The translations under genes and the position numbers were made by a program. A stretch of DNA of 36,446 nucleotides from an uncultured Microbacterium sp. (GTDB lineage Bacteria > Actinomycetota > Actinomycetes > Actinomycetales > Microbacteriaceae), in assembly GCA_947647645.1 (NCBI GenBank), contig CANSLE010000002.1:1-36446 (forward strand), in the 5' to 3' direction. The notes below the pieces were generated by a model. That model worked only from the letters and a program-made list of their open reading frames with translations, had not been told where the DNA came from and made no database searches. Positions 4,419-19,068 of the stretch are shown here, in pieces; position 1 is the stretch's first letter; each line of letters starts with the position of its first letter.

Positions 4419-4509
4419 TGGCGGTGACGGTGGGATTTGAACCCACGGTAGGGGGTTACCCTACACAACTTTTCGAGAGTTGCACCTTCGGCCGCTCGGA
4501 CACGTCACC
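4419..4509 (-). tRNA. tRNA-Ser (anticodon CGA), CCA encoded
   Basis: Reverse complement GGTGACGTGTCCGAGCGGCCGAAGGTGCAACTCTCGAAAAGTTG...GTGGGTTCAAATCCCACCGTCACCGCCA: acceptor GGTGACG/CGTCACC, anticodon stem CAACT/AGTTG with loop CTCGAAA, long variable arm, GTTCAAAT T-loop. Confidence 0.96.
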
Positions 4510-17696: not shown

Positions 17697-18104
17697 TCAG
17701 GTGTCCAGGTCGAGCGCGGCCAGCAGGTCGCCGGGGGATGCCTGCATGGCGTGCGGGCCGGCGATGTCGAAGAAGACGGTGGTGATCTCCGCACGATGGG
17801 CCGCGAGGAACGCGCGCAACCACGCCGGGGACTGCAGCGCCACCGCCGGAGGCAGGGCCTCGGGCTTGTGCGCGGCATCGCTGAACAGGAGCAGCGCGAC
17901 GTCGCCGGTGTTCGGATCGCGGTACGTCCAGACCTCCCCGCGATCGCGAGGGTCATCACGCTGACCGGGGCGCATGAGGGGCACCACCGTCGGGCCGTGG
18001 CGGAGGGCGAACGCGAGCGCCGCCATGTCCTGCGTCTGCAGGGCATCGGCCAGCTGCGTGTTGCGGAACTCGAGGGGAGGCTTCGCGCGCTTCTTTCCAG
18101 CCAT
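17697..18104 (-). CDS. Hypothetical protein (possibly SseB-like)
   Basis: ATG at 18104: MAGKKRAKPPLEFRNTQLADALQTQDMAALAFALRHGPTVVPLMRPG...; coding-like composition, no firm family. Confidence 0.6.
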   Translation of the reverse strand: MAGKKRAKPPLEFRNTQLADALQTQDMAALAFALRHGPTVVPLMRPGQRDDPRDRGEVWTYRDPNTGDVALLLFSDAAHKPEALPPAVALQSPAWLRAFLAAHRAEITTVFFDIAGPHAMQASPGDLLAALDLDT

Positions 18105-18149
18105 CGCTCCAGCATACGAGTACACGTCGCGGCGCCCTCGGGGACGGAG

Positions 18150-18300
18150 AGAGGGGCCCTCTCGATCTCCACATTGGGGGCTGGGAAGATCGAGAGGGCC
18201 TGAACTCATCGGGCGATGTGCCGGTGATGCCGGTCATTGGGGGTGACACGACGACCGCCGTTGGGGACGGCGGCGGCTCACACGAGAGCTGAGACCAGGG
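18150..18300 (-). ncRNA. Candidate small RNA with repeated CCCCAA hairpin loops (6C-RNA-like?); boundaries approximate
   Basis: Minus-strand hairpins CCGCCG-TCCCCAA-CGGCGG (18273-18255), GTCA-CCCCCAA-TGAC (18247-18233), and a 13-bp stem GGCCCTCTCGATC/GATCGAGAGGGCC (18200-18155) with CCCCCAA in its loop, in a non-coding gap. Confidence 0.45.
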
Positions 18301-18381
18301 TATCCGCCGTCCCCTCTCTCTTCGCGGGAAAGAACGTGAGAAATCTCTCAGACGCAGAGATATATCGGTGGCACGGAATCG

Positions 18382-19068
18382 TCAGCGCAGCTCGAACATC
18401 TTCGTGTCCGCCGCCTGGATGCCGCCGATGGAGACAGACAGGTGATAGTAGCCGGGGGATGCCCGGGGTCGGGACGAGCCGCACGTGTCGACCGATGAGC
18501 GCGTACGGTCCCACTGCAAAGGGCTCACGCTGGACACCGTCTGCCCGGCCGCCAGCTGAACCACCTGATCGCTCGACTCCGACTGGCAGTCCGTGGAGCG
18601 CCACCAGGTGTCGCTTCCGCTCGTGATGACGAACGACTGCGTCGCGGTGCCCACGTTGATCAGGCAGGGCGTGGTCGAGGTGTTCGAGAGGGTGATCGAC
18701 AGCTTGGGCAGCGCCCCCGCGGCGTAGACGTCCTGGTCGGTGACCGCGTGCACCGAGATCCCCGCCGTCGAGCATGCGGCGACCGACGGCGCCGTCCCGG
18801 ACGGGTCCGGGGCCGGCGTGGTCTCGACCGCCGTCGGCGTGGAGGGGGCCGGCGCCATCGTCGGAGAGGACGACGGCGAGGCGCTGGGCGCGGTCGGTGT
18901 CGGCGGCAACGATGTGGAGGCCGCGGGCTCCGCCGAGCCCCGCCAGGGCTGCCACACCGCGAGCACGACGGCGGCGACGAGGGCGAGGACGATCAGCACG
19001 GCGACGAGTCGGCGCCGCCGGTACACGGCGGGACTGGGGCGTCGCGGACGGCGCGTCGGTGTGCTCAC
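18382..19068 (-). CDS. Membrane-anchored hypothetical protein with Pro/Ser/Thr linker and C-terminal beta domain
   Basis: RRRRLVAVLIVLALVAAVVLAVW TM segment, PTPTAPSASPSSSPTMAPAPSTPT linker, Cys-containing DUF4232-like extracellular part. Confidence 0.78.
   Translation of the reverse strand: MSTPTRRPRRPSPAVYRRRRLVAVLIVLALVAAVVLAVWQPWRGSAEPAASTSLPPTPTAPSASPSSSPTMAPAPSTPTAVETTPAPDPSGTAPSVAACSTAGISVHAVTDQDVYAAGALPKLSITLSNTSTTPCLINVGTATQSFVITSGSDTWWRSTDCQSESSDQVVQLAAGQTVSSVSPLQWDRTRSSVDTCGSSRPRASPGYYHLSVSIGGIQAADTKMFELR

Follow-up and report, generated by a model that had tools for sequence, protein, structure and literature searches.

A predicted multi-copy small RNA of Microbacterium with the same C-rich core in three hairpin loops

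How actinobacterial small RNAs find their targets is poorly understood; to our knowledge, the usual RNA chaperone, Hfq, is absent from Actinobacteria. The 6C RNAs (RF01066) are short intergenic RNAs of ~75 nt with two hairpins whose loops hold at least six C; the last hairpin doubles as the terminator, and pairing with G-rich RNA has been proposed. Several mycobacteria carry additional 6C copies (PMC9569102). LhrC of Listeria monocytogenes is multicopy and pairs with mRNA through three redundant UCCC sites, two of them in loops (terminator loop included) and one single-stranded (PMC4132741). The staphylococcal RNAs RNAIII, RsaE and SprD also use a UCCC motif for mRNA binding (PMC4132741).

The window analyzed here is a 36,446-nt stretch of DNA from an uncultured Microbacterium sp. 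From the covariance model R1, covariation and the positions of promoter and terminator, we predict a small RNA of ~148 nt, whose ends we infer, on the minus strand at 18290-18143 (the class A C-loop RNA). The initial annotation had described three minus-strand hairpins with CCCCAA loops, and all three are present: H1 (CCGCCG-TCCCCAA-CGGCGG, 18273-18255; helix 2), with a nearly invariant loop, H2 (GTCA-CCCCCAA-TGAC, 18247-18233; helix 3), and a terminator-like hairpin T (18200-18155; helix 4) with a GGCCCTCTCGATC/GATCGAGAGGGCC stem, 16 bp in its lower part, and CCCCCAA within a loop containing CCCCCAAT, the third C-rich loop. Two further elements had been missed. One is a closing stem, P1 (helix 1), in which GCTCTCG (18289-18283) pairs with CGATGAGT (18211-18204, with a bulged U), as indicated by the fold of the 148-nt unit and by covariation. 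The other is a -10 box, TACCCT (18302-18297); 38/39 homologs have TAnnnT in this column, and the conserved 5′ end of the RNA follows 5-7 nt later. Farther upstream, the inverted repeat TGAGA-N4-TCTCA (18337-18350, minus strand), centered ~50-55 nt before the RNA start, is possibly a transcription factor site; a GAGA-N4-TCTC inverted repeat also lies 5′ of most class A promoters outside a clade with a TACCAT promoter.

In the minimum free energy fold of the 148-nt unit, all three CCCCA cores lie in hairpin loops and the closing stem encloses H1 and H2. Relative to dinucleotide shuffles, the fold of the 252-nt gap has z = -5.3, although in its overall minimum free energy structure the C-run of H1 pairs differently, with upstream sequence. 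That the repeated loop core is unlikely by chance, as the initial annotation had argued, agrees with simulation: when the whole window was simulated 300 times with a Markov model, a single run placed three CCCCAA within 130 nt. When the three CCCCAA were fixed in place and the rest was shuffled, three CCCCA hairpin loops formed in 0/500 cases and two in 37/500. CCCCAA itself is this clade's form of a genus-wide UCCCCAG/UCCCCAA loop.

Compensatory changes occur in the RNA helices in both alignments used for the covariation analysis that had been proposed for this region. Alignment A2 has 99 distinct model-aligned rows and, as it was fitted to the model, its counts lean towards the model: 88.0% of cells are paired (76.3% after shuffling), compensatory change is found at 32/42 pairs (540 cells), and the covariation score is 0.352, against 0.172 for shuffles, with 0/500 shuffles reaching any of these measures. 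Pairing drops to 39-48% when partners are slid by 1-3 columns. Opposite-strand terminator matches account for 4/100 rows and leave the picture unchanged. By helix, the closing stem is paired in 91% of A2 cells with both-side changes at 7/7 pairs, H1 in 92.5% with compensatory change at 6/7 pairs, and H2, the hardest to align, in 73% with compensatory change at 8/9 pairs. Covariation is thus strong in the closing stem, H1 and H2, and the upper terminator stem varies too; the lower terminator stem is nearly invariant and so says little on this point. The 39 MAFFT-aligned sequences of alignment A1 give the same overall picture (pairing in 85.5% of cells, and 161 compensatory cells where shuffles give 67.6), but two of five measures are not above shuffles. 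RNAalifold alone reports 19 pairs with compensatory change. Folded singly, the 39 homologs mostly adopt the same shape, and the CCCC cores of the three loops are unpaired at a probability of at least 0.75. The loops are fixed across the 99 distinct aligned sequences, with the genus consensus UCCCCAG, UCCCCAG and GUCCCCAAUG, and the CAGYCCCCAATG loop of the terminator hairpin is kept genus-wide.

R1, whose training set includes the window, matches the window RNA at 120 bits. In loci extracted from relatives, the full unit comprises the -10 box, the closing stem, two C-loop hairpins and a terminator-like hairpin with a AGUCCCCAAUG loop, and in same-genus genomes the third hairpin is found at the same place. 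Most class A loci keep a gene of the 228-aa type upstream, one of the 135-aa type downstream and a convergent radA-like gene. The conserved neighbors in the window, both on the minus strand, are a 228-aa gene at 18382-19068 (membrane or secreted by eye) and a 135-aa gene at 17697-18104 (beginning MAGKKRAK, SseB-like by eye); neither has a Pfam match.

The terminator-loop pattern, with up to two mismatches, is present in 151 of 298 Microbacterium genomes, many with two copies; reversed-pattern controls in the genus gave zero among those listed. Across all GTDB species genomes it occurs in at least 117 places, and among the 80 matches listed the named ones are nearly all Microbacterium; the remainder are actinobacterial bins without a name and a handful of contigs that are probably contaminants. 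A contig labelled Stenotrophomonas maltophilia (L125, JACEFY010000315.1) bears the Microbacterium RNA pattern, probably through contamination. Outside the genus, R1 found only weak matches in a restricted first look at 293 family and 197 order genomes, and those inspected are terminator-only or without C-loops; given that restriction, the absence is provisional.

The second copy found elsewhere in many genomes, class B (26 distinct sequences), differs from class A in its closing-stem, H1 and H2 sequences and has the identical set of three loops. Its closing helices are GUGCAUGCAC and GAUCGUC, and its hairpins CGUCUC-UCCCCAG-GAGACG and GCC-UUCCCCAG-AGGC; L192, L177, L071 and L075 hold further diverged copies. 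This constancy of the loops while the stems change is the best evidence that the loops are the functional part. Separately, directly after class B comes a further unit of C-rich hairpins, with loops ACCCUCC and UCCCCCC, and then a cspA-like gene; this unit (L176 downstream of 7464, L181 downstream of 4093, L233) has weak 6C scores of ~28 bits.

Covariation, the conserved -10 box, conserved synteny and the same-loop paralogs strongly support a small RNA on the minus strand, the part of the initial interpretation that stands. Judged from sequence, the C-loop RNA is a predicted small regulatory RNA that Microbacterium carries in multiple copies and that had not been catalogued before. We consider it likely that 18290-18143 encodes a trans-acting antisense RNA of ~148 nt with its own promoter and three redundant C-rich seeds. 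That promoter would drive the ~148-nt transcript, in which the closing stem would hold H1 and H2, and transcription would end at the long terminator-like hairpin that comes next. The three hairpins would expose one seed of the UCCCCA family, so that pairing with UGGGGA-type sites could start from any loop. The loops would pair with G-rich RNA, probably needing no dedicated chaperone, as reported for 6C, and mRNA leaders may serve as the partner or, in some species, a G-loop RNA (see below). A genus-wide multicopy family in which stems are free to change whereas three near-identical loops are fixed offers a natural experiment for seed-loop recognition.

The best working analogue, and the one that may be closest in function, is LhrC. 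Both are multicopy and carry three redundant C-rich sites, classes A and B occurring together in many genomes with three loops each, although only one C-loop copy, of class A, was found in the window's own genome (an incomplete assembly, 81%). LhrC differs in being a Firmicute RNA of other sequence with one site single-stranded rather than in a loop. The Rfam scans of the window, whose families may or may not include LhrC, gave no LhrC match. RNAIII, RsaE and SprD are unrelated to the C-loop RNA in sequence and host.

Is the C-loop RNA, then, a 6C RNA? Both are short and intergenic, with C-rich hairpin loops, a last hairpin that doubles as terminator and proposed pairing with G-rich RNA, and the initial annotation had suggested a divergent 6C or a new relative. 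The RF01066 model scores 16.2 bits (E = 9.1), on the third hairpin only, against a gathering cut-off of 47. Neither the window nor the tested loci of relatives contain a gathering-level RF01066 match, and the only gathering-level Rfam 15 match in the window is a tRNA (4422-4509). Genuine 6C occupies a separate locus in Microbacterium, scoring above the cut-off in 3/59 genomes and slightly under it in several others; in one genome (G013), RF01066 at 244169 (51.7 bits, above cut-off) and the C-loop RNA at 2262327 are distant from each other. The low score and the genuine 6C elsewhere in the genus led us to drop 6C membership and to regard the C-loop RNA as a separate family with a similar principle. 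What holds of the "new relative" is the shared use of C-rich loops; common descent is not borne out. Canonical 6C RNAs (49-52 bits) at L195, L196 and L197 (G020, G013 and G016) adjoin a TadA/CpaF-like ATPase gene by eye.

A highly diverged 6C, descended by duplication, would account for the C-rich loops and for the use of the last hairpin as terminator, and duplication has a parallel in the extra mycobacterial copies (PMC9569102). We nevertheless find this unlikely, given the RF01066 score on one hairpin, the real 6C with a different neighbor in the genus, and the architecture itself: there are three C-loop hairpins rather than two, with UCCCCA loops mostly of 4-5 C rather than six, a closing stem, and ~148 nt in length. 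The last C-loop hairpin is terminator-like as in 6C, and its T tail, weak in the window (CCTCTCTCCGTC), is richer in T in many relatives. The location between two co-oriented genes and the terminator-like end would also suit a cis element, either a 5′ leader or attenuator of the 135-aa gene or a 3′ UTR or terminator of the upstream gene. This is improbable, however, as the RNA has its own conserved -10 box and class B and other same-loop paralogs lie at unrelated loci. The downstream gene, moreover, has its own -10 box (TATGCT, 18111-18116, minus strand) 6 nt before the ATG, a TAxGCT box likewise standing just before the ATG in relatives, which speaks against the RNA as its leader. Least credible is action at the DNA level, or a bare bidirectional terminator with incidental C-loops: the stem is a near-perfect palindrome, and the model also gives the opposite strand a score, yet the asymmetric loops are conserved on one strand, H1 and H2 covary, and paralogs retain all three loops.

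If the C-loop RNA is a trans-acting antisense RNA, G-rich sites near starts are candidate targets. In 1062 genes of one relative (1.2 Mb, about a third of the genome), CTGGGGA occurs 5 times at -30 to -1, against 3.5 expected, which supports no mRNA target. With no start-site excess, wide Shine-Dalgarno targeting is unsupported and was dropped; a few specific targets or a G-loop RNA are more likely. In the window, CTGGGGA is found at 35861-35855 on the minus strand, 33 nt 5′ of a conserved, apparently leaderless small membrane-protein gene. This candidate too was set aside, since the site lies upstream of the gene's own -10 box in both the window and a relative, and is probably not transcribed.

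The palindrome TTGTCCCCC-N4-GGGGGACAA occurs at some class A promoters (7/39) and beside class B. A search of eight genomes found ~3 sites in each of seven relatives; the window's own genome has five, of which three are near-identical copies. Of the sites in relatives, one strong one lies with a C-loop RNA (of class A, or in the spacer next to class B), and another is upstream of putative transcripts with G-rich hairpin loops. A conserved G-loop RNA is predicted in 26 of 149 Microbacterium genomes, with a marginal 27th match, and all 26 loci have a TTGTCCCCC-N4-GGxGGACA palindrome. Its hairpin loops are GGGG, CUGGGGA and GGGAA, and its terminator loop, UCUGGGG, sits on a stem resembling that of the C-loop RNAs. 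CUGGGGA, present in 22/26, is exactly complementary to UCCCCAG (-11.9 kcal/mol). Two C-loop matches were found in 23 of the 26 genomes with the G-loop RNA versus 7 of the 123 without it, a hand count inflated by shared ancestry. Neither the window's own genome (81% complete) nor most class A genomes yielded the G-loop RNA. No Rfam family matched at the G-loop loci tested, and a literature search on Microbacterium small RNAs or a 6C sponge found nothing relevant. The loci are L309-L334 (e.g., L241:1535-1685, L244), behind the palindrome TTGTCCCCCAAATGGCGGACAA. In one case (L242), CUGGGGA stands at the Shine-Dalgarno position behind a palindrome.

These patterns raise the possibility that the C-loop RNA acts mainly with the G-loop RNA, the UCCCCAG and CUGGGGA loops kissing and one RNA titrating the other as a sponge under partly shared control. 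The conserved G-rich loops, the palindrome common to both RNAs and the co-occurrence speak for this, but the G-loop RNA is missing from the searches of most class A genomes and of the window's own, the co-occurrence is confounded by phylogeny, and the distances from palindrome to -10 box differ. We hold it tentatively; it would refine the trans-acting antisense reading and does not exclude it. A shade more doubtful is a full mirror system in Microbacterium, in which multicopy UCCCCAG three-loop RNAs and a separate CUGGGGA RNA, partly under one operator, would be coupled by kissing-loop titration. Should the G-loop RNA truly bind C-loop RNAs, the two would form a genetically simple sponge pair in an environmental genus that is mostly harmless. 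The matching loops could also mean that both RNAs act on common targets.

A second, rarer G-loop RNA is seen in few genomes; its stems vary, and its GGGGGGA loops are complementary to UCCCCCC (L237:1523-1690 and L238 on the plus strand, L239 on the minus strand). The three near-identical palindrome sites of the window's own genome are copies of ATGTCCCCTTTTCGGGGGACAA (G000:C4:19142, C29:12445 and C84:3581; L240, L248), which by eye lie near genes for WXG100-like proteins.
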